NCBI RefSeq assembly: GCF_001077535.1
Contig: NZ_CP011968.1
Span: 2,604,001-2,668,000 of the forward strand
Length of the DNA: 64,000 nt
Origin: Clostridioides difficile ATCC 9689 = DSM 1296
GTDB taxonomy: Bacteria > Bacillota > Clostridia > Peptostreptococcales > Peptostreptococcaceae
Direction of reading: 5' to 3'
How positions within the stretch are numbered: the stretch's first letter is position 1; each line of letters opens with the position of its first letter. This document shows positions 284 through 16,714 of the stretch, in pieces. Position numbers and translations under genes: made by a program. Under the pieces are notes generated by a model. The model made no database searches. It was not told where the DNA came from and was given only the letters and a program-made list of their open reading frames with translations.

Positions 284-2275
284 TTAAATATTTTTATTGT
301 ATTTCTTCCATAAAGATGTCCTGCTTATTCCAAGAACTTGTGCAACTTCATTTTTAGAAAGTCCCTGAGCAAAAAGCATACTTATTATTTTTTCTTCAAC
401 ATACTTATTTACTTCTTTTATATCTATACTTATCTTACCATCATTTATCTTACTTATATTTATAGATTCATCTTGGACTTCTACACTTGCTGTCGTTTCA
501 GAATTAAATTTGTCTACTTCAGAGTTAGGAAGTAATTTTTTAGTTTTAAAATCTCTATCTTGTCTCAATTTAATTTTACCTGTCACAACATATTTTTGAG
601 CTATTGTCTTTAACTCTCTTACATTTCCAGGCCAGCTATAATTATATAGCTTATCCATTTCATCTTTAGTCAAAACAAAATTTTCATCTATACTGTTTAT
701 TCCATTGAGACCATCATCCTTTAATACTTCATTTACAAAATTGTTAAACAAAGGTATTATATCTTCTCTTCTGTCTCTTAAAGGAGGTATATTTATCTCT
801 AAACTACTCAATCTATAAAATAAGTCTGCTCTAAATGTACCCATAACTATTTTTTCGGTTAAAGATTCATTCGTTGCTGCTATAATCCTTATATCCAGAG
901 GTATTATATAATCAGAACCAATTCTCATTATTTGACGTTCCTCTATTACTCTTAATAGTTTTGTCTGAATATTAAAGGATAGACTATTTATTTCATCTAA
1001 AAAAAGAGTCCCTCCATGAGCAAGTTCAAATAGCCCTCTTTTTCCACCCTTTCTAGCACCAGTAAATGCACCTTCTTCATAGCCAAAAAGTTCACTTTCA
1101 AGTAAATTTTCTGCTATAGTAGCACAATTTATGGCAACAAAAGGCCTATCTTTTCTTTTACTTATATTGTGTATACTATGAGCTATAATTTCTTTACCAG
1201 ACCCACTTTCTCCATAAAGTAAAGTTGTATAATCACTTTTTCCAATTTTTTTAGCTTCTTCAATAAATTCTTTAGTTAATTTATCTTTAAATAAAAAATC
1301 ATCAAAAGTATATCTAGCATAGAGACCTTTTTGATTCAAGTCAAATCTTATTTTTCTTTCTAAGTTTTGTAACTTGGTTATATCTTGTATTATTCCTAAA
1401 ACTCCATAAGTACTATTATCAACTTTTATCAATGTTGTCCTAGTATTAACAATTAGATTATTTATATTTCTTATCTTTCTATCTTCTACGTCCTCTTTTT
1501 CATGTAAACAATCTAACATCCACTCCATTTTAGGAAATACATCTAAGATGTATTTATTAAGTGCACATTTTCTCTCTACTTTAAGCATGTTTTTTGCACT
1601 TTCATTGTACAAAATTATACTGCCATTACTATCTATAGCAATTACTCCATCTTTTATACCATCAAGTATATTTCGTAACACTTCATTATTAAACTTTTCT
1701 TCACCTAATGTATCTAATAATTTTTTACAATATTCTACAGCTTCTCTTATAGATTCATCACTAGCAGTTGCAAATACACTATCAATTCCATATTGCCTTG
1801 CAAAAGAACATGCCAAACCTCCTCCTACGATTACAACTTCATCTTTTTGGTCTATATATTTTACAACTTTACTTCTTATCTCATACTTAGATTCAAACCA
1901 TTCTTCAGTTATTTCAGTACTTATGACATTTCTCCAGCCAACATAGTCAAAAGAAACTTCATTGTCTCCAAGAATCAATACTACTTTTTTAGAATATTTC
2001 TTTGCTATTTCTATTGCTCTTAAAAGGTCAGTTGACTTCATATTCATTGGTATAACAGGTACATTTACTGTATCTATTACTAAACTATAACCTCCACCTC
2101 TACCAATTATAGCTTGGGCACCTTTTTCAACAAGTATACGACCTTGATTTTCCATTAAGTCTAGGTTAAGTATGTCGATTATTATAGTTCCATTTTCTAC
2201 ATCTTCTCTATATAATTCTTCTATTCTTTCTTTTAATTCAATATCAGAGGCTATAATTCCTATTTTTTTTCGCAA
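284..2275 (-). CDS. sigma-54-dependent activator, PrpR_N-PAS-AAA-Fis
   Basis: Enhancer-binding transcription activator for sigma-54 RNA polymerase. The N-terminal ~190 residues resemble the propionate-activator receptor domain (PrpR_N), with [10 protein letters not shown] near residue 58. A PAS domain follows (about 195-300), then a full AAA+ domain: Walker A GESGSGKE near 356, the sigma-54 contact loop GAFTGA near 403, Walker B GGTLFLDE near 422 and arginine-finger region FRADLFYRL near 482. The C-terminus holds a Fis-type helix-turn-helix ([20 protein letters not shown]). The first possible start (GTG, 2284) sits inside the Shine-Dalgarno GAGGTGAT, so the TTG at 2275 is preferred, giving about 663 residues. 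The GGDEF gene upstream ends only 16 bases away, suggesting cotranscription. The signal sensed is unknown; PrpR_N domains bind small organic acids or acyl ligands. The likely target is the gene at the left edge. Confidence 0.9.
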
Positions 2276-2291
2276 CAAAATCACCTCAATT

Positions 2292-4178
2292 TTAAATTAT
2301 AATGTATTGATTTCTACCTGCTTTTTTTGATTTATATAGGTTCTTATCTGCATCTTCAATTAATATTTCAACATCTTTTCTACTATGACACCTTTTTATA
2401 CTTACTCCAGCACTTATAGTTATATAGTTTTTTATTTTAGAATATATATGTTCAATACCCTCAAATTCAAGAAGTTTGAAAACTCTTTTAATATATAATT
2501 CTATATTATCAATCTCTTCAACACCGATTGATTCTATAGAATCTACTAATATTAAAATTTCTTCTCCCCCATATCTGATTATGTGTTCGGTAATATCTAT
2601 AAATACACTTCTTATAATATCAGTTACCTTAACTATAACTTTATCCCCTGCTAGATGACCATAATTATCATTATAACTTTTAAAACAATCTATATCGACC
2701 AGTATTGCAACCATATTTTTGTCTCTGGTTCCATTAAATAAATCCAACTGCTGTTCCAAATATCTTCTATTATATAGTTTAGTAAGTCCATCTTTTAAAA
2801 TATCATTTTCTAATTTCTTATTATCATCCACTAGTAATCTTAAACTCTCTTGTTTTTGTCTGAGTTCATATTGTTTGTGAATTGCTTGAGATGTTTTATA
2901 GGAATTATTTTTTTCCCACCTATCAGAATACCAATCCATACTTTTATAATATTCTATTGCCAGTTTAAAATCTTTTTTTAGCTCATATCCATTTGCTATT
3001 AGCCCATAAAATATAGATATTTTTCTAAGATTCAATGAACTCTTTTTAACTAAATTTAAACCTTTTATATAACAACTTATACCTTCATCTATATTACCAA
3101 ATTTTATATATAAATCTCCATACAACTTATATATGTAATCTAGTTTAGAATTATATATAAAAACATCTCCAAAACTTTTATATATATTTTTTGATAAAAT
3201 TAAATAGGTGTTTACCTTTTCAAAACTACAATTATCTTTCTTTAACTCAATTTCAGCTGAATATAAAAATATAAATGAATATAAATAATCCTTATATACA
3301 CCTTCAACAACTTTCATTAATTTTATAGTCTTTAATAAAATAACTTCTGCTTCTTTATTCATATCTTCTTTTAAATATGCCCATATAAGGTCTATTTTTA
3401 TAGACACTCTTTCAGTTACTGATATTGAGTTATTACTGTGTGCAACATCTAATACATTATTTATGTATTTTATAGCTTCTACATTATTTCCACTCTCTAA
3501 ATAACACAAACTTATTATACATTTACAAAAAGCCTCTATAGAGTATAAATTATTTTCTTGAGCCAATTTTAGACATTCAATTAAGTATTCCATACTTTTT
3601 ATAAAGTTATTAAATAAATATAGATAAACTCTCCCAAATATATAATTTGCCCTACTTACAAGAGCTTTATTTTTTAAAGTTTTAAAAAAAGACACTTCTT
3701 CTACTAAAGCTATTACATCCGTTTTGGTCTGATATAAAGCACTTATTTCTACACATAAACTCATATTTAACAATACCAACAACTCATTTAAATGATTTTG
3801 TCTTATAATTTTTTTTGCTGAGAAATAAAAATTATTTACCTTATCATATTTTCTTATAGAAATAGCTGATAAAGTAAGATAAATATAAATTTTAGATATT
3901 ATATCTGAATCATCTTTTAATGACAATTTTTTAATATACTTTAATGACTCTATCAAATAGTTGTATGATGCTTCTCTATCTTTTTTTATATAGTTTATAA
4001 GACTAATTAAATATAAAGTATAGACTCTACTATTATCTTCTAATTTTGTATTTAAAAGGTCTTTGTGATAATCCAAGATGTAGTTTAAATCTGTCAAATT
4101 TAGATAGAATTTAGTCAACATATCGTATTCTATCTTGTTTATATTTCTCTTTAAATCTTCTATTAAACTCCTTTTCAA
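2292..4178 (-). CDS. TPR-GGDEF diguanylate cyclase (first of two)
   Basis: Predicted cytoplasmic diguanylate cyclase making cyclic di-GMP from two GTP. The first ~450 residues are all-helical with TPR-like repeats and no membrane segment or signal peptide. The C-terminal ~170 residues are a GGDEF domain: [12 protein letters not shown] start motif, metal-binding [15 protein letters not shown], and signature [10 protein letters not shown]. The inhibitory I-site RxxD five residues before GGEE is absent (DITE in that place), so product inhibition at that site is not expected. An earlier TTG at 4190 has no space for a ribosome binding site; GGTGAT lies four bases before TTG 4178, so that start is used. 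It lies between a second TPR-GGDEF gene and the sigma-54 activator, all minus strand with gaps of 16-26 bases, a probable operon. What the TPR part senses is not visible. Confidence 0.85.
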
Positions 4179-8487: not shown

Positions 8488-8526
8488 AAGGTTGTCGCCC
8501 TATTTCTTAGTGCGACAACCTCTTTT
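8488..8526. terminator. bidirectional terminator
   Basis: Perfect ten-base stem AGGTTGTCGC (8489-8498) and its complement (8512-8521) with a 13-base loop and T/A flanks on both sides. It lies between the convergent genes at 7420-8442 (+) and 8527-9129 (-) and can serve both. Confidence 0.85.
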
Positions 8527-9129
8527 CTAATAACGCTCTCCGGCAGCTTGCCAAGTGGCTTTTCCAACAACACCATCTTTTGTTACACCAAGTCTTCCTT
8601 GAAGTATTTTTACTTGATTATATGTAGCAGGTCCAAATTTACTATCTGGATCAATATCAGAACCATTTATTTGTTGACATAAAAGTTGTACTAAATGCAC
8701 AGGATTCCCTTTTTCTACATGTCCATATCCTACTACAGTGGTATTTATATTTACGCTATAACTTATAGGACCAGTAACATCAAAACGATTTAAATCTTTT
8801 TTATATCTAATAATAAATGCTTTTGGTTCAATATTATAATCATCTATATTAATATTATATGAATCTATAAATTTTTCATTAATAAAGATTGTATCATCTT
8901 TAGATGGATTTATATTTAATTCTTTACATTTTTTTTCATAATCAGATTTTATAGGTTGTGGTGCATTCTCATAAATAAATTCATAACCAGTTATTGTAAA
9001 TGAATTTGTTGTTTGCTCTTCATTACTTTTTGATACATTTACATCATTATTAGTACTTGCAAATACTAAACTAGTAGATATTAGAGTCAAACACCCTGTG
9101 ACTATTAAAATTTTCTTTAGACTTTTCAT
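8527..9129 (-). CDS. secreted peptidoglycan-binding protein, cassette copy A
   Basis: 200 residues. A Sec signal peptide (MKSLKKILIVTGCLTLISTS..., cleavage likely after VFA near 25) is followed by a roughly 120-residue part of unknown fold. A C-terminal peptidoglycan-binding (PG_binding_1) domain follows, about 143-199, with FGPATYNQVKILQGRLG and DGVVGKATWQAA. No catalytic domain is present. It is the last gene of a BlaI-BlaR-like cassette, 51 bases after the M56 gene, and probably the regulated output of that pair. A paralogue lies at 12195-12782. Confidence 0.85.
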   Translation of the reverse strand: MKSLKKILIVTGCLTLISTSLVFASTNNDVNVSKSNEEQTTNSFTITGYEFIYENAPQPIKSDYEKKCKELNINPSKDDTIFINEKFIDSYNINIDDYNIEPKAFIIRYKKDLNRFDVTGPISYSVNINTTVVGYGHVEKGNPVHLVQLLCQQINGSDIDPDSKFGPATYNQVKILQGRLGVTKDGVVGKATWQAAGERY

Positions 9130-9179
9130 TTCAAAATTCCTCCTAATTTGTTAATAAATTATAATACTATAAAAATCTA

Positions 9180-10214
9180 TTAATTTACAACTCTCATGCT
9201 AATATCATCTTCTTCCTTAAGATCTGCGCCTGTTTTTTCTAAAATCCCTATATTTCTTAAATAATTTGAATTATCAAAACTAATACTTTCAAAATTAAAA
9301 TATGTAACTGAAAATAATGTAAACAAAATCAATAACATCAATATTCCACTTTTCCCTTTTTTCTTAATAATACTATCAAGTCTCTTTTCCAAATTTGTCT
9401 TATTAAATTCAGTTGTTAAAATACCACTATTATAATTCTTACTAAGTTTAATTGACTTTATAAGTGCTAACGCATATGCTTTCTTATCTTTTAAAGAGCA
9501 ATCAGTCAAAACACTTTCATCACAACATAATTCACAATCTAGATTTACTTTATTGCTCATTATATAAACAAGTGGATTAAACCAATACATTATTTTAACA
9601 GACAAAACTAAAAACTTTATCAAAATATCTTTGTTTTTAAAATGCATTAATTCATGTTTCAAAATCCAAGTTAACTCATCTTTACTATAAGTATAGTCTG
9701 GTAAGAATATGTACGATTTAAATAATCCCATACCTGCTGGACTTATCAATTCATCAGAACCCCTTAACTCAATTTTCTTTTTTATGTCTAATTCTTTTAA
9801 CAAATTTTTATAGATACAATTTACATCATTATCTTCAATATCATAAGATACATCAACAACGAGATTTTTAAATTTTGTGTATTCTATAAATGTATAAACT
9901 GCAATGGCTATAGTTACAAATAACCATAAATAAACTAAATACAGCATAAAATCATTATCTATAGAAATATCAATTTGTGTAATATTATTTCCTACTGTAT
10001 TTTCTTTGGGATCTTTTACTTCATACATTACTGTATAATTAAATAGAAAAAGTAACATTCTAAAGACTATTACCAACCAAATATAATAATTAAATCTCTT
10101 ACTAAACCTCTTAAAAAAATATATTTTCAAAAATAATAATAGACAAATACCAAAACTACATACAATAGTTGTCTTTATAAGATTGTCAAAAACATATAGC
10201 ATATAATTATTCAT
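9180..10214 (-). CDS. short BlaR1-type M56 membrane metallopeptidase, copy A
   Basis: 344 residues. It has membrane segments near 12-32, 42-61 and 92-111, then a cytosolic zinc protease domain with HELMH at 187-191 and the downstream CELCCDESVL conserved in M56 proteases. A last membrane helix lies near 287-306. Classical BlaR1/MecR1 proteins are about 585 residues and end in a penicillin-binding sensor domain; here only about 38 residues follow the last helix, so there is no beta-lactam sensor. The gene overlaps the BlaI-like gene by eight bases, indicating translational coupling. By family knowledge it should inactivate the partner repressor in response to an envelope signal. The copy at 12848-13882 is closely similar. 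Confidence 0.85.
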   Translation of the reverse strand: MNNYMLYVFDNLIKTTIVCSFGICLLLFLKIYFFKRFSKRFNYYIWLVIVFRMLLFLFNYTVMYEVKDPKENTVGNNITQIDISIDNDFMLYLVYLWLFVTIAIAVYTFIEYTKFKNLVVDVSYDIEDNDVNCIYKNLLKELDIKKKIELRGSDELISPAGMGLFKSYIFLPDYTYSKDELTWILKHELMHFKNKDILIKFLVLSVKIMYWFNPLVYIMSNKVNLDCELCCDESVLTDCSLKDKKAYALALIKSIKLSKNYNSGILTTEFNKTNLEKRLDSIIKKKGKSGILMLLILFTLFSVTYFNFESISFDNSNYLRNIGILEKTGADLKEEDDISMRVVN

Positions 10215-10584
10215 TCTTTAAATTATCAAAATAACTTTCTAAAAAATCTAGCGTGTCTTTACCTATATTTTCATCATCATGCAATGCTGAAATTAAGCTT
10301 TTCAAAGAATCATCATGTATATTACTTAGGAAATCCTTTGTCTCAAAACTTAAATAATCTTTGTGTTTTACTATTACTGTGTAATGTGTATATCTGTCTA
10401 TTTTTTGAGCATCTAAGAATCCTCTTTTTACTAACCTAGATAAAAGTGTTAGTGTAGTGGTTTGTTTCCAACCATATTTTTGTTCCATAACTTCAATAAC
10501 ATCTTTTGATGTCACTGTAGCATCTACTTTCCAAATAAATTTCATTACTTTTAGTTCTGCTTGTGGTATTTTTCTTATCATCAT
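10207..10584 (-). CDS. BlaI/MecI-family repressor, copy A
   Basis: 125 residues of the BlaI/MecI/CopY winged-helix repressor family: IPQAELKVMKFIWK at the start, recognition region GWKQTTTLTLLSRLVKRGFL, and a C-terminal dimerisation helix bundle. BlaI-type repressors bind TACA/TGTA dyads as dimers and are cleaved by, or because of, the cognate M56 protease. A matching dyad lies over the promoter at 10620-10630. The ribosome binding site GGGAGGTG precedes two consecutive ATG codons; copy B starts at the position of the second. First gene of the cassette. By eye there are about seven differences from copy B (13875-14249). Confidence 0.9.
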   Translation of the reverse strand: MMIRKIPQAELKVMKFIWKVDATVTSKDVIEVMEQKYGWKQTTTLTLLSRLVKRGFLDAQKIDRYTHYTVIVKHKDYLSFETKDFLSNIHDDSLKSLISALHDDENIGKDTLDFLESYFDNLKNE

Positions 10585-10614
10585 TTACACCTCCCTCAAA
10601 ACTCTTGCTACTTT

Positions 10615-10645
10615 AAGTCTACAATATGTAAATTTTTTAGTCAAA
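10615..10645 (-). promoter_or_regulatory. cassette A promoter with BlaI-type operator
   Basis: Minus strand: -35 TTGACT (10644-10639), 17-base spacer, -10 TAGACT (10621-10616). The dyad TACA-N3-TGTA (10620-10630) overlaps the -10 region, so repressor binding would block the polymerase. BlaI/MecI operators are TACA...TGTA dyads, here with one extra central base. The assignment is by motif only. Confidence 0.65.
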
Positions 10646-10693
10646 CGCTTTATGAAAAAATGTGAATTTTTGTACTTTTTATTAATTTTCTAA

Positions 10694-11104
10694 TTTTTTT
10701 AAATATTAAAAGTTAGATTTTAAAATATAGTTATTCAAGTATTTTGCTTTTTACGTATTTAATTATAATAGTGTAGAATGTTATTTCCACATTAAAATTA
10801 TTTAACAAAACTACCTATATTTTTACACAAGGAATATTATAATACTTTTATTTAAATAAACTAGAGTAATATCTAATAAATTTTAACAATCTCCTAATTG
10901 TACCTTTGTGTTATTAAAATATCTGTTTTATATAAGTTTATGTTATAAGTAAAATTATACATATCAAATAAAGGTATAAAAACACCATTTTGAGTGTCTT
11001 TAAAATAAAGTTTGTATTCTTCTAAAAAGTTATAATAATTAAAACATCACTACTATACAAAGGAAGATGTACACTTTTTATGTTTAATAAAAACTAAAAT
11101 ATTA
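10694..11104. other. intergenic, part of the cassette duplication
   Basis: The part up to about 10934 is clearly homologous to 14250-14602 (for example the shared stretches AATAGTGTAGAATGTTATTT and AACTAGAGTAATATCTAATA), marking the distal end of the duplicated unit. The rest up to the transposase remnant shows no gene or clear structure. Confidence 0.6.
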
Positions 11105-12090: not shown

Positions 12091-12194
12091 GTAAAAATTT
12101 AATTATCACTTAAAAAATAAATTTTTGTTTAAAGAATACATGTAAATGTTTACAGATTCAGCAATTTAAAATTATCTGTGCAATAGCTTTCTTT

Positions 12195-12782
12195 TTAAAG
12201 ACGTCTTCCAGCTGCATCCCAAGTACTTCTTCCAACAATTCCATCTCTTGTTAATCCAAGTCTTCCTTGAAGTGACTTAACTGCATTATATGTAGCAGGT
12301 CCAAATTCACTATCATCATCAATACTTGAACCATCTAAGGTTCTACATAAAAGTTGAACTAAATGCACAGGATTACCTGATTCAACACGATTATATCCGA
12401 CTACAGTATTACTTACATTTAATGTATAACTCTTAGGTCCAGTAACTTCAAAAACATAACCTTTTTTATATCTAATAATATATGCTTTTGGCTCAACATA
12501 GTTTTCTACATCATTTGCATCTATAGAATCTTTGTTAACAAAAATTATATCATTTTTAGATGGTTTTATATTTAGCGCTTCACATTTTTTTTCATAATCA
12601 AATTTTACAGATTGTGGTGCGTTTTCATATGTAAATTCATAACCAGTTATAGTACATGAACTTATTATTGAATCATCATCCTTTGATGTATCTACATCAG
12701 TAGTAGTATTTGCAAATACCAAACTAGTAGATATTAGAGTTAGACAACCTGTAATTATTAAAATTTTTTTTAAATTTTTCAT
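12195..12782 (-). CDS. secreted peptidoglycan-binding protein, cassette copy B
   Basis: 195 residues, paralogue of the protein at 8527-9129. The signal peptide is nearly the same (MKNLKKILIITGCLTLISTS), followed by a diverged middle and a C-terminal PG_binding_1 domain (FGPATYNAVKSLQGRLG, DGIVGRSTWDAAGRRL). It is the most diverged of the three cassette genes, consistent with the secreted product evolving faster than its regulators. No enzymatic domain. It should bind cell-wall glycan and follows the M56 gene by 65 bases. Confidence 0.85.
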   Translation of the reverse strand: MKNLKKILIITGCLTLISTSLVFANTTTDVDTSKDDDSIISSCTITGYEFTYENAPQSVKFDYEKKCEALNIKPSKNDIIFVNKDSIDANDVENYVEPKAYIIRYKKGYVFEVTGPKSYTLNVSNTVVGYNRVESGNPVHLVQLLCRTLDGSSIDDDSEFGPATYNAVKSLQGRLGLTRDGIVGRSTWDAAGRRL

Positions 12783-12847
12783 TTCATAATTCCTCCTAAT
12801 TTATTAATAATATGACAATATACCTTTTCATTACATATATTAATCTA

Positions 12848-13882
12848 TTAATTTATAACTCTCATGCTAATATCATCTTCTTCCTTAAGATCTACTCCTG
12901 ATTTTTGTAAAATCCCCATATTCCTTAAAGAATTTGAATTATCAAAACTAATACTTTCAAAATTAAAATATGTAACTGAAAATAATGTAATCAAAATCAA
13001 TAACACCAATATTCCACTTTTACCTTTTTTCTTAACAATACTGTCAAGTCTCTTTTCCAAACTTGTCTTATTAAACTCTGTTGTTAAAATACCACTATTA
13101 TAATTCTTACTAAGTTTAATTGACTTTATAAGTGCTAATGCATACTCCTTCTTATTCTTTAAAGAACAATCAATCAAAACACTTTCATCACAGCATAATT
13201 CACAATCTAGATTTACTTTATTGCTCATTACATATACAAGTGGATTAAACCAATATATTATTCTAACAGACAAAACTAAAAACTTTATTAAAATATCTTT
13301 ATTTTTAAAATGCATTAATTCATGTTTCAAAATCCAAGTTAGTTCATCTTTACTATAAGGATAGTCTGGTAAGAATATGTAAGATTTAAATAATCCCATG
13401 CCTGCTGGACTTACCAATTCATCAGAACCTCTTAATTCAATTTTCTTTTTTATATTTAATTCTTTTAACAAGTTTTTGTAGATACAGTTTATATCATTAT
13501 CTTCAATATCATAAGATACATCAACAACTAGATTTTTAAATCTTGTATACTTTATAAATGTATAAACTGCAATGACTATAGTTACAAATAACCATAAATA
13601 AGCTACATACAGCATAAGATTATTATCTGTAGAAATATCAATTTGTGTAATATTATTTCTTACTGCATTTTCTTTGGGTTCTTTTACTTCATATACTATT
13701 GTATAATTAAATAGAAAAAGTAACATTCTAAAGACTATTATCAACCAAATATAATAATTGAATCTCTTACTAAACTTCTTAAATAAATATCTTTTCAAAA
13801 ATAATAATAGACAAATACCAAGACTACATACAATAGTTGTCTTTATAAGATTTTCAAAAACATATAGCATATAATTATTCAT
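12848..13882 (-). CDS. short BlaR1-type M56 membrane metallopeptidase, copy B
   Basis: 344 residues, collinear with copy A without gaps. It has the same membrane layout, HELMH zinc motif at 187-191, CELCCDESVL, a final helix near 287-306 and a short outer tail (LQKSGVDLKEEDDISMRVIN). The C-terminal penicillin sensor of BlaR1/MecR1 is missing here as well, which argues that the short form is a functional family rather than one truncation event. It overlaps the BlaI-like start by eight bases. Confidence 0.85.
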   Translation of the reverse strand: MNNYMLYVFENLIKTTIVCSLGICLLLFLKRYLFKKFSKRFNYYIWLIIVFRMLLFLFNYTIVYEVKEPKENAVRNNITQIDISTDNNLMLYVAYLWLFVTIVIAVYTFIKYTRFKNLVVDVSYDIEDNDINCIYKNLLKELNIKKKIELRGSDELVSPAGMGLFKSYIFLPDYPYSKDELTWILKHELMHFKNKDILIKFLVLSVRIIYWFNPLVYVMSNKVNLDCELCCDESVLIDCSLKNKKEYALALIKSIKLSKNYNSGILTTEFNKTSLEKRLDSIVKKKGKSGILVLLILITLFSVTYFNFESISFDNSNSLRNMGILQKSGVDLKEEDDISMRVIN

Positions 13883-14249
13883 CCTTTAAATTATCAAAAT
13901 AACTTTCTAGAAAATCTAGCTTATCTTTACCTATATTTTCATCATCATGTAATGCTGAAATTAAGCTTCTTAAAGAGTCATCATGTATATTACTTAGGAA
14001 ATCCTTTGTCTCAAAACTTAAATAATCTTTGTGTTTTACTCTTATTGTGTAATGTGTATATCTGTCTATTTTTTGAGCATCTAAGAATCCTCTTTTTACC
14101 AGCCTAGATAAAAGTGTCAGTGTGGTGGTTTGTTTCCAGCCATATTTTTGTTCCATAGCTTCAATAACATCTTTTGATGTCACTGTAACATCTACTTTCC
14201 AAATGAATTTCATTACTTTTAGTTCTGCTTGTGGTATTTTTCTTATCAT
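13875..14249 (-). CDS. BlaI/MecI-family repressor, copy B
   Basis: 124 residues, almost the same as copy A. The DNA-recognition part GWKQTTTLTLLSRLVKRGFL is unchanged, so the two repressors probably recognise each other's operators. The ribosome binding site GGGAGGTG lies upstream of a single ATG (copy A has ATGATG). Head of the second cassette. Confidence 0.9.
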   Translation of the reverse strand: MIRKIPQAELKVMKFIWKVDVTVTSKDVIEAMEQKYGWKQTTTLTLLSRLVKRGFLDAQKIDRYTHYTIRVKHKDYLSFETKDFLSNIHDDSLRSLISALHDDENIGKDKLDFLESYFDNLKDE

Positions 14250-14279
14250 TATTTACACCTCCCTCAAAACTCCTGCTAC

Positions 14280-14313
14280 CTTAATTCTACAACATGTGAA
14301 TTTTTTAGTCAAA
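14280..14313 (-). promoter_or_regulatory. cassette B promoter with BlaI-type operator
   Basis: Minus strand: -35 TTGACT, 17-base spacer, -10 TAGAAT. The dyad at 14288-14298 is TACA-N3-TGTG, a one-base departure from copy A's TACA-N3-TGTA. The promoter is slightly closer to consensus than that of cassette A and the operator slightly weaker, so basal expression may differ. Confidence 0.6.
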
Positions 14314-14602
14314 CACTTTATGAAAAAAATGTGAATTTTTGTACTTTTTGTTAAATTTCTAATTTTTTTACAATATTAAAAGTTAGATTTTAAAATATAT
14401 CTATTTAAATATTTTACTTTTTACATATTTAATTACAATAGTGTAGAATGTTATTTACACATTAAAACTGTTTAATAAAAATTCCTATATTTTCACACAA
14501 GGAATATTATAATACTTTTTTTTAAAATAAACTAGAGTAATATCTAATAAATTTTAATAACCTTCTAATTATGCCTTTATGCTATTAAAACATCTATTTT
14601 AT

Positions 14603-14883
14603 ACTGATTATTTACAAATATATCTAAATTAATTATAAATTTTATTGAATAAGACTTTTATAATTATACCTTTCATAAATTATAAAAAAGCACTTTTATA
14701 AAAAATGTGCTTTTAATATCTACTAATAAAGTTCTTTATTTTAATTAAAACATAATTATATTTTAGTATTATAATCTTTTAATTTTAGCATTATAGTTTA
14801 TGTATTATACCCTAATATATTTTAAATTACTAGTTAATCACTCTTTTCGGGTTATTTATCTCCTATATATTAAAGTGTCACAC
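14603..14883. other. intergenic with minus-strand terminator
   Basis: Beyond the duplicated region this stretch contains a hairpin AAAAGCAC (14686-14693) with GTGCTTTT (14707-14714), followed on the minus strand by TTTTTT. It is the terminator of the membrane-protein gene at 14884-15366. Nothing else is seen. Confidence 0.65.
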
Positions 14884-15484: not shown

Positions 15485-15540
15485 ATAATAAAAGCCTTTA
15501 AAATACATTTTTTTCTTATTTTAAAGGCTTTTTATATTCT
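15485..15540 (-). terminator. terminator downstream of the B3/4 gene
   Basis: Arms AAAGCCTTTAAAATA (15491-15505) and its complement (about 15519-15533) form a long stem with A/T runs on both flanks. It is best placed as the terminator of the minus-strand gene at 15658-16362, and can also stop plus-strand reads. Confidence 0.7.
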
Positions 15541-15657
15541 ACATTTTTATTTTCTATATTATATCCTTTGATAATCGTTATATCTAAAATAGACCTTCTT
15601 ACCCTAAATATAAGTATCTTTATAACTAGAATAGTCCATTACAACAGCACCTCCATA

Positions 15658-16362
15658 TTAATCCACTGATACCTCTTTATTATCAATATCTAAAATTGAA
15701 ATTTTACAATTCCCACCCAATTTTTCTTGAACTATTTTAGCTAATTCATTTAAAGCATTTTCAAATTCTTTAAATCTACTTTCATCTACTAATTCAATGC
15801 ATAAAAAGGCATTGTTAGTATCTTCAGTAAGCATTGTTCTCACTGCTTCACGCCAATTCCAACATCTACAAATTGCTCCACCATCATCTTTATAAATTAT
15901 TTCTCCTTCATATGGAAATGAATTTTCATCTGTCCCTAGTGGGATAAACTCCTCATTACCAATTGCTCTAGTTAGCCTAATATCTCCTATAAATTTATCT
16001 ATATCCTCCCCTCCACAAGGTAATGCATATTTTAATGAGATAAAATTGTAGATATCCACTAAAGGGTTAATAGTTCCTATATTATTTCCATTATGAACTC
16101 TTTTTAATAATGCTTCAATAGAAGACCTTGCTCCTTTTTTCGTTTTAAATTTTTTAAATGCTTCTCTCCATACTTTAATCACTTGGTTGTTGCTAAATTC
16201 TGAGTCCCCCAAGTATTTTAATGCTTCTTCTTCTCCCTTCAAAATTATTTTCTTATAGTCTTCATCTTTTATAGAGTTATCTATATCATTACAAATAACA
16301 ACTCCAATTTTTGCACTAGGAAATAGATTCCAAAATGCATCCTCAATAACAAATTTTTTCAT
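15658..16362 (-). CDS. stand-alone B3/4 domain protein under riboswitch control
   Basis: 234 residues, matching the B3/B4 domain of the phenylalanyl-tRNA synthetase beta chain as a free protein. Features seen are LKRVHNGNNIGTINPLVDIYNFISLKYALPCGGEDIDKF, GDIRLTRAIGNEEFIPLGT and the GGAICRCWNWREAVRT segment of the domain. In PheT this domain holds the editing pocket that hydrolyses mischarged tRNA; free homologues are poorly characterised and may act on aminoacyl-tRNA or free amino acids. The gene has a good ribosome binding site (GAGGAGG) and lies directly behind a guanidine-I type riboswitch with its terminator, so expression should rise with the ligand. This ties a putative editing or amino-acid-binding protein to guanidine, an inference from context. 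No neighbour joins the transcript. Confidence 0.8.
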   Translation of the reverse strand: MKKFVIEDAFWNLFPSAKIGVVICNDIDNSIKDEDYKKIILKGEEEALKYLGDSEFSNNQVIKVWREAFKKFKTKKGARSSIEALLKRVHNGNNIGTINPLVDIYNFISLKYALPCGGEDIDKFIGDIRLTRAIGNEEFIPLGTDENSFPYEGEIIYKDDGGAICRCWNWREAVRTMLTEDTNNAFLCIELVDESRFKEFENALNELAKIVQEKLGGNCKISILDIDNKEVSVD

Positions 16363-16394
16363 TAGAAAACCTCCTCAAATTTAAAATATGTAAA

Positions 16395-16440
16395 AATAAA
16401 AAAGCCTATAGAAATATTATTAAATATCTCCCAGGCTTTT
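16395..16440 (-). terminator. riboswitch expression-platform terminator
   Basis: Minus strand: AAAAGCCT (16440-16433) pairs with AGGCTTTT (16408-16401, running into the T-run) around a stem-loop with AATAATATT, followed by TTTTTT. The 5' half of this hairpin is the conserved 3' end of the aptamer (AAAAGCCTGGGAGA). Ligand-stabilised aptamer and terminator therefore exclude each other: an ON switch. Confidence 0.85.
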
Positions 16441-16512
16441 ATCCTTCCGTGTACACAACAATTGTGCGTTTTCTCTTGGACCTGACCATTATAAAATGCG
16501 GAACCCTAGAAA
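16424..16512 (-). ncRNA. guanidine-I (ykkC-yxkD class) riboswitch aptamer
   Basis: The minus strand shows the family's conserved blocks in order: CTAGGGTTCCGC (from about 16509), GGTCAGGTCCAAGAG (about 16482-16468), a hairpin with CACAA and TTGTG arms, ACACGGAAGG (about 16453-16444), then ATAAAAGCCTGGGAGA. The TTCCG/CGGA pairing closing the structure is present. The only differences I note from the consensus are in variable positions (GGTCCA for GGTCCG, GCCT for GCCC). The ykkC family also has subtypes binding ppGpp, PRPP or nucleoside diphosphates; the intact ACACGGA...ATAAAAGCC block favours guanidine but does not prove it. The terminator follows at once and the regulated gene is the B3/4 protein at 15658-16362. 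Confidence 0.88.
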
Positions 16513-16714
16513 ACTAAATTATAAGTTTTTTAATTTACAAAATACAATTAAATTTTAGCATAATGTAGTATTTAAAACAATATTATATTATCGGATTTGT
16601 ACATTAAAACAATTTGCTATTAAATTATAATTATGGTGGCAAATGGGTGGCAAATCACCTTTTTTATTACATTTTCGTTTGTTTAAACTATTGAAATACT
16701 ATATTCTTACAATT
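16513..16714. other. intergenic with a short tandem repeat
   Basis: Upstream region of the riboswitch transcript, so it holds that promoter, and the 3' flank of the transglycosylase gene. It contains GGTGGCAAAT directly repeated (about 16634-16654). No gene. Confidence 0.4.

Follow-up and report, generated by a model that had tools for sequence, protein, structure and literature searches.

What does a guanidine-I riboswitch control when the gene directly behind it encodes a lone B3/4 domain, the tRNA-editing type of domain known from PheT? The question is raised by a locus of Clostridioides difficile ATCC 9689 = DSM 1296, lying in the window, by which we mean the whole 64-kb stretch of DNA that was analysed. 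An earlier note on this DNA had placed a complete guanidine-I aptamer, a terminator and the B3/4 gene between positions 15658 and 16512, had suggested that guanidine or a guanidino amino acid is either a substrate or a mischarging threat, had considered that this could be a new guanidine-response function, and had proposed to count the pairing across genomes. The features of the locus are collected in Table 1. Elsewhere in the window we observed two tandem copies of a three-gene module (8510-10932 and 12178-14603, about 3.67 kb apart, 76-94% identical by block), with genes for a peptidoglycan-binding protein and a BlaR1-type M56 peptidase (by Pfam, run on a single copy of each) and for what, by the impression of its sequence, is a BlaI-like regulator.

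Table 1. Features of the ctdA locus, in positions of the window.
Feature	Position	Strand	Basis
Promoter-like site TTGCCA-18-TATAAT	16624..16653	-	11/12 consensus match
Guanidine-I riboswitch aptamer	16426..16520	-	RF00442, 86.3 bits; gathering 63
Intrinsic terminator hairpin, then U tract	16400..16440	-	fold -16.9 kcal/mol
Ribosome-binding site GAGGAGG, 7 nt before ATG	16370..16376	-	read from sequence
ctdA, stand-alone B3/4 domain protein, 234 aa	15658..16362	-	PF03483; phmmer and fold match CtdA
Radical-SAM gene scar: start region joined to piece of C-terminal third	15558..15660	-	alignment to L003, L094
A+T-rich inverted repeat AAAAGCCTTTAAAATA / TATTTTAAAGGCTTTT	15490..15531	-	read from sequence

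The aptamer was the sole Rfam match above gathering within the whole window (cmscan, E 4.8e-14), and it is complete, covering model positions 1-107. In the strip 16340-16660, guanidine-I was the only riboswitch family at E<=1, the one other row being a lncRNA model (E 0.61). The 3' end of the aptamer lies 63 nt from the ctdA ATG, and the terminator hairpin (AAAAGCC...GGCUUUU) starts 14 nt inside that end and runs into the U tract, its 5' arm AAAAGCC being part of the aptamer's own 3' segment; an unconstrained fold of the leader also forms this hairpin. The class assignment of the earlier note and its account of a complete aptamer with a terminator directly upstream of the B3/4 gene were therefore borne out, as was the location of the locus, with the correction that its end at 16512 falls 8 nt inside the aptamer.

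All 20 directly coupled leaders examined (the window and 19 relatives) carry a comparable hairpin that overlaps the aptamer end; they have the architecture of a transcriptional ON switch, a terminator sharing the 3' segment of the aptamer. In each leader the hairpin picked was that of lowest energy among those running into a stretch of U, with no shuffled control; it is their near-constant position, with the 5' arm starting 13-14 nt inside the aptamer in 18/20 and 21 nt inside in 2/20, that argues for terminator overlap in direct leaders. The score of the aptamer together with this overlap in 20/20 direct leaders rules out a chance match or artefact as its source. A generic terminator scan did not flag the hairpin of the window, and the whole leader folds only modestly better than its shuffles (z -1.86; 8/200 shuffles equally good). 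The promoter-like site lies about 100 nt upstream of the aptamer; 15 such sites were found in 1.5 kb versus 10.9 expected in shuffles, and the consensus match alone is no evidence of function. At the other end, the A+T-rich inverted repeat possibly marks the end of the transcript, and a terminator scan requiring three G-C pairs and loops of 3-8 did not report it.

The protein behind this leader has PF03483 (Pfam B3_4, E 4.7e-29) and no other Pfam domain at E<=0.001, in keeping with the stand-alone PheT-editing-like domain described previously. Searched with phmmer against all PDB sequences, it matched 9f7e, the CtdA of Pseudomonas canavaninivorans (7.3e-29), and 9mkl, a second B3/4 protein titled CtdA in the fold listing (4.6e-26), and nothing else at E<=0.01, PheRS included. 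A search with its predicted structure (pLDDT 83.3) likewise ranked 9f7e (TM 0.80) and 9mkl (TM 0.82) best; the other 32 matches at E<=0.001 were nearly all PheRS chains at TM 0.46-0.58 (best PheRS 0.58). The B3/B4 editing domain of the PheRS beta subunit thus shares its fold and Pfam domain with the window protein; the latter, however, is free-standing, nearer to CtdA than to PheRS beta by sequence, and has the CtdA fold, with PheRS fold scores clearly below those of CtdA. The lack of PheRS matches at E<=0.01 and the lower TM rule out a PheRS fragment.

Both solved CtdA proteins resemble the window protein in being stand-alone B3/4 proteins of about 230 aa, with TM about 0.8, and in their GGE and CRxWNWR motifs. 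An alignment gave P-x-GGE and CRxWNWRxxxRT as motifs common to the window protein and rhizobial and Pantoea B3/4 proteins; the GGE and CRxxNWR blocks are kept with rhizobial, Pantoea and Enterococcus relatives, and a paralogue in the same genome (L113) was without both blocks. Identity to Pseudomonas CtdA is low (27% in the fold alignment). From its sequence, its modelled fold and its homologues, the ctdA product is a probable canavanyl-tRNAArg deacylase. We observed three further B3/4 proteins in the window genome: L113, whose gene (1501-2196 of its locus) has an azaaromatic (yjdF) riboswitch (369-466) about 1 kb upstream, and the divergent L114 and L115, which match PF03483 with 60.5 and 34.7 bits. 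A ctdA homologue of Mesorhizobium sp. AR10, which came from an Astragalus nodule, lies between genes for a PLP-dependent enzyme and an FMN-binding regulator.

The pairing of aptamer and gene recurs in relatives, of which we compared the best 80 of 235 related stretches. The count proposed in the earlier note came to 37 of these best 80 loci with guanidine-I at gathering upstream of a ctdA homologue: 19 directly, with a gap of 47-115 nt, and 18 with a gap of 255-815 nt that holds a gdx-type gene or piece (11 loci) or an EamA-like gene or piece (seven loci; the Pfam assignment comes from one scanned protein, L027). We found no guanidine-I upstream in the other 43 of the best 80 (5 of the 43 with <1 kb of contig upstream), so the link is not obligatory. 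The intervening transporter gene takes several forms. A 144-152 aa EamA-like (half-size DMT) gene lies between guanidine-I and ctdA in L013, L022, L027, L031, L042 and L053, and a piece of one in L024; in L009, L010, L011 and L012, very similar loci from differently named organisms, the gdx-like gene in this position is broken by an in-frame stop.

Within the family of the window organism, 28 of 60 sampled genomes had guanidine-I (35 matches, 33 above the cut-off). ctdA was present at E<=1e-60 in 10 of the 60, with guanidine-I upstream by coordinates in all 10, 50-65 nt away in nine and about 700 nt away in one (G035), where an EamA-like gene lies between. Guanidine-riboswitch control is thus a feature of the clostridial ctdA members, as at the window locus. 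Other guanidine-I targets observed in the family sample were a MatE transporter gene at L101 (assigned by Pfam), with a similar-looking gene at L105, and a gene for an SfLAP-family membrane protein (L095). Among the best 80 of 235, the nearest named relatives of the window locus are three C. difficile-labelled records (84-92% protein identity), with which it groups in the tree (support 100/100 for the four-row set). The window genome itself (4.15 Mb, 2 contigs) has two guanidine-I aptamers, the second preceding a small-multidrug-resistance-type gene of the gdx/SugE kind (Pfam).

This pairing is already known and described in print. Hauth et al. (2023, PMC10018355) report that CtdA of P. canavaninivorans deacylates canavanyl-tRNAArg, that its gene adjoins a canavanine-degradation operon, and that a guanidine-I-associated homologue from C. 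perfringens prevents the accumulation of canavanylated tRNAArg. They also describe a P. pelagia guanidine-I reporter switched on by hydroxyguanidine as by guanidine, and propose that guanidine or hydroxyguanidine serves as a proxy or indicator of canavanine. A 2024 review (PMC11477304) gives CD0488 (gdx) and CD2392 (printed 'cdtA') as the guanidine-I targets of C. difficile, annotates CD2392 with 'deacylation of canavanylated tRNAArg', and states that the gdx RNA switches on transcription when it binds guanidine. The two aptamers found here, before ctdA and before gdx, match these two targets; the CD2392 unit belongs to the same genus, with two guanidine-I RNAs before gdx and before the B3/4 gene, and we saw no difference between it and the window. 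Unlike Pseudomonas ctdA, the window gene is under riboswitch control, and we saw no canavanine-degradation genes beside it. On the strength of these two articles, a new target class for guanidine-I is ruled out. Of the interpretation given in the earlier note, then, the riboswitch class, terminator type and domain stand, and so does the guess of a guanidino amino acid as mischarging threat, which the reported deacylation of canavanyl-tRNAArg by homologues supports; the novelty of the guanidine-response function does not.

We conclude that the locus is very probably the ctdA transcription unit of Clostridioides, switched by guanidine, with CtdA clearing canavanyl-tRNAArg. Without ligand, the leader would fold into the intrinsic terminator and transcription would stop before ctdA. 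With guanidine bound, or hydroxyguanidine, a breakdown product of canavanine, AAAAGCC would be kept in the aptamer, blocking the terminator, and ctdA would be made. CtdA would then hydrolyse tRNAArg mischarged with canavanine, a plant analogue of arginine, guanidine acting as a proxy signal for canavanine exposure. The present analysis shows to which class the aptamer belongs, that it overlaps the terminator, the family and fold of the protein, and the conservation of their linkage; ligand response and tRNA deacylation are taken from the published homologues, and we infer that the window RNA and protein behave as these do.

A further gene belongs to the unit in many relatives. In 38 of the best 80 of 235 loci, the next gene after ctdA, with the same orientation, is a radical-SAM gene, intact in 33 of them and in pieces in 5. 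For the 33 intact genes among these best 80, a simple start-codon rule gives 30 gaps of 9-21 nt, the remaining three measuring 45, 48 and 100 nt. The product has about 230 aa, and its CxxxCxxC cysteines are invariant in 31 aligned proteins; the one protein scanned (L097) matched PF04055 at E 5e-15. These features and the predicted fold (pLDDT 86.4) place the intact copies of relatives in the radical SAM superfamily. Since PFL activase, TYW1, RlmN, lipoyl synthase, viperin and NifB came out of the fold search with almost equal Z, no family is assigned; PFL activase, TYW1, RlmN and viperin are, by fold, the closest known systems. A PDB profile search gave nothing at E<=0.001. Single-sequence phmmer at E<=1 returned influenza hemagglutinin chains (all but the first of the matches listed, 60 of 99), which at 0.005-0.05 we judged to be chance.

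The radical-SAM gene also occurs without ctdA behind the riboswitch. Of the 60 family genomes, 17 had a match at E<=1e-15, 12 of them with full-length close copies and the rest with pieces or more distant proteins. Eleven of the 12 full-length copies have a guanidine-I aptamer upstream, and seven follow ctdA; in four genomes (G018, G030, G042, G052) the full-length gene follows the aptamer without ctdA. We observed this order, guanidine-I then radical-SAM gene with no ctdA, at L088, L097, L098 and L103, with an FMN-reductase/flavodoxin-like gene after the radical-SAM gene at L098 and L103 (Pfam for L098 only). At L091 (1653-2015), an ORF behind guanidine-I starts like ctdA and ends like the radical-SAM protein; by its sequence, it looks like a fusion of the two genes through a deletion. 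In another family genome (G003, locus L141), the remaining full-length copy of the radical-SAM gene (1495-2184) is about 1.4 kb upstream of a guanidine-I/gdx pair and 50 nt after a methionine-gamma-lyase-like PLP gene (2237-3448). The PLP enzyme is 39% identical to that adjacent to ctdA in Mesorhizobium, and the PDB matches of both are the usual methionine/cystathionine lyases; it missed the cut-offs of all the NCBIfam families listed (25 of 42), and beyond its neighbourhood we found no support for a canavanine lyase.

In a sample of 245 genomes of the class, six had a radical-SAM match at E<=1e-30. Two loci (L123, L124) carried guanidine-I, gdx, ctdA and the radical-SAM gene, and L122 the same set without ctdA; in G140, guanidine-I, gdx, ctdA and radical-SAM pieces were spread over separate contigs. 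At L125 the radical-SAM gene accompanies ctdA, and guanidine-I was not found in the surrounding DNA examined; divergent copies (in G254, and a second one in G190) had neither guanidine-I nor ctdA nearby. Among the ctdA loci of the best 80 of 235, the radical-SAM gene accompanied 30 of 37 with guanidine-I versus 8 of 43 without (Fisher p 2.5e-8, a test that ignores kinship). Independent pairs (7 on supported branches) went the same way 2.9 times and the other way 0.2 times on average, with a median p of 0.25; once kinship is respected, the association is not significant. Among the papers listed by a literature search naming radical SAM, none connected such a gene with guanidine riboswitches or with the handling of canavanine.

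The window retains a scar of this gene. Within the 294 nt after ctdA, nt 1-58 of the strip align with the intact region of L003 at 79% (E 1.7e-10, 53.6 bits), and nt 70-103 align at 94% (E 4.8e-11, 51.8 bits) with a part of L003 lying about 460 nt beyond; the first block contains an in-frame stop. The same junction is present in a second genome of the genus (G048, locus L094; 104 nt at 84%, E 2.5e-27, 108 bits), compared with which the window is without a further stretch of about 265 nt. None of 1000 randomised strips scored higher than 41.9 bits, a level that all these scores exceed; against L004 one block was above it (44.6) and one below (31.9), and against L005 nothing exceeded the randomised level. 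Differently placed pieces of the gene remain in G057 (L005), and it is intact in G017 and G036 of the same genus. We found no other close radical-SAM copy in the window genome (best other match 1.6e-4, none at 1e-15). Since the window groups in the tree with intact L003, and L005 with intact L004, the gene has decayed at least twice in the genus.

The main reading has to be set against other accounts of the RNA, the protein and the unit. Most of the ykkC scaffold is common to its subtypes, and RF00442 alone may not separate them, as would matter if the aptamer were a ykkC subtype-2 RNA sensing ppGpp, PRPP or a nucleoside diphosphate instead of guanidine. Such a ligand is extremely improbable given 86.3 bits to the Guanidine-I model with no other riboswitch family at E<=1, an alignment with the gdx aptamer of the same genome in which the conserved core is common to both, the induction of the C. 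difficile gdx RNA by guanidine (stated in PMC11477304), and the gdx or EamA-type transporter gene or piece that shares the unit in 18 of the 37 linked loci (best 80 of 235). The gene context of guanidine-I/ctdA loci is of the guanidine type.

B3/4 domains have several specificities. With only 27% identity to the Pseudomonas enzyme, the window protein might edit another mischarged tRNA, or act on another arginine analogue or a free guanidino compound, canavanine not being its natural substrate here; a gut anaerobe would presumably meet legume canavanine through diet only. We consider this unlikely, because the closest solved structures are both CtdA (9f7e, 9mkl), the window protein keeps the motifs of rhizobial homologues, and a guanidine-I-associated clostridial homologue prevents canavanylation (PMC10018355). 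The transporter genes and the radical-SAM gene that share the unit in relatives, and the four family genomes that keep the latter behind guanidine-I without ctdA, would also suit a unit devoted mainly to guanidine detoxification, in which ctdA is carried along and at present has no role here. Against this very improbable account, ctdA is open in 5/5 sampled genomes of the genus, whereas the radical-SAM gene is broken in three of them, so that ctdA is the part retained. A guanidine-switched unit that expresses CtdA against canavanine mischarging therefore stays the preferred reading.

For this reading, the window confirms in one more genome a connection already in print, in which guanidine is sensed as a warning of canavanine mischarging. 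The part of the locus that may be new is the radical-SAM partner with its scar; in relatives this gene is closely linked to both ctdA and guanidine-I. We suggest tentatively, and with somewhat less than even confidence, that the small radical-SAM enzyme is a second guanidine/canavanine-response protein of this unit in anaerobic Firmicutes, one that in some genomes persists behind the riboswitch without ctdA and that has decayed at least twice in the genus, leaving the scar seen in the window. If true, this would bring a radical-SAM enzyme into a response about whose chemistry in anaerobes little is known. Through the decay in Clostridioides, ctdA units with the radical-SAM partner and units without it can be compared as they occur in nature.
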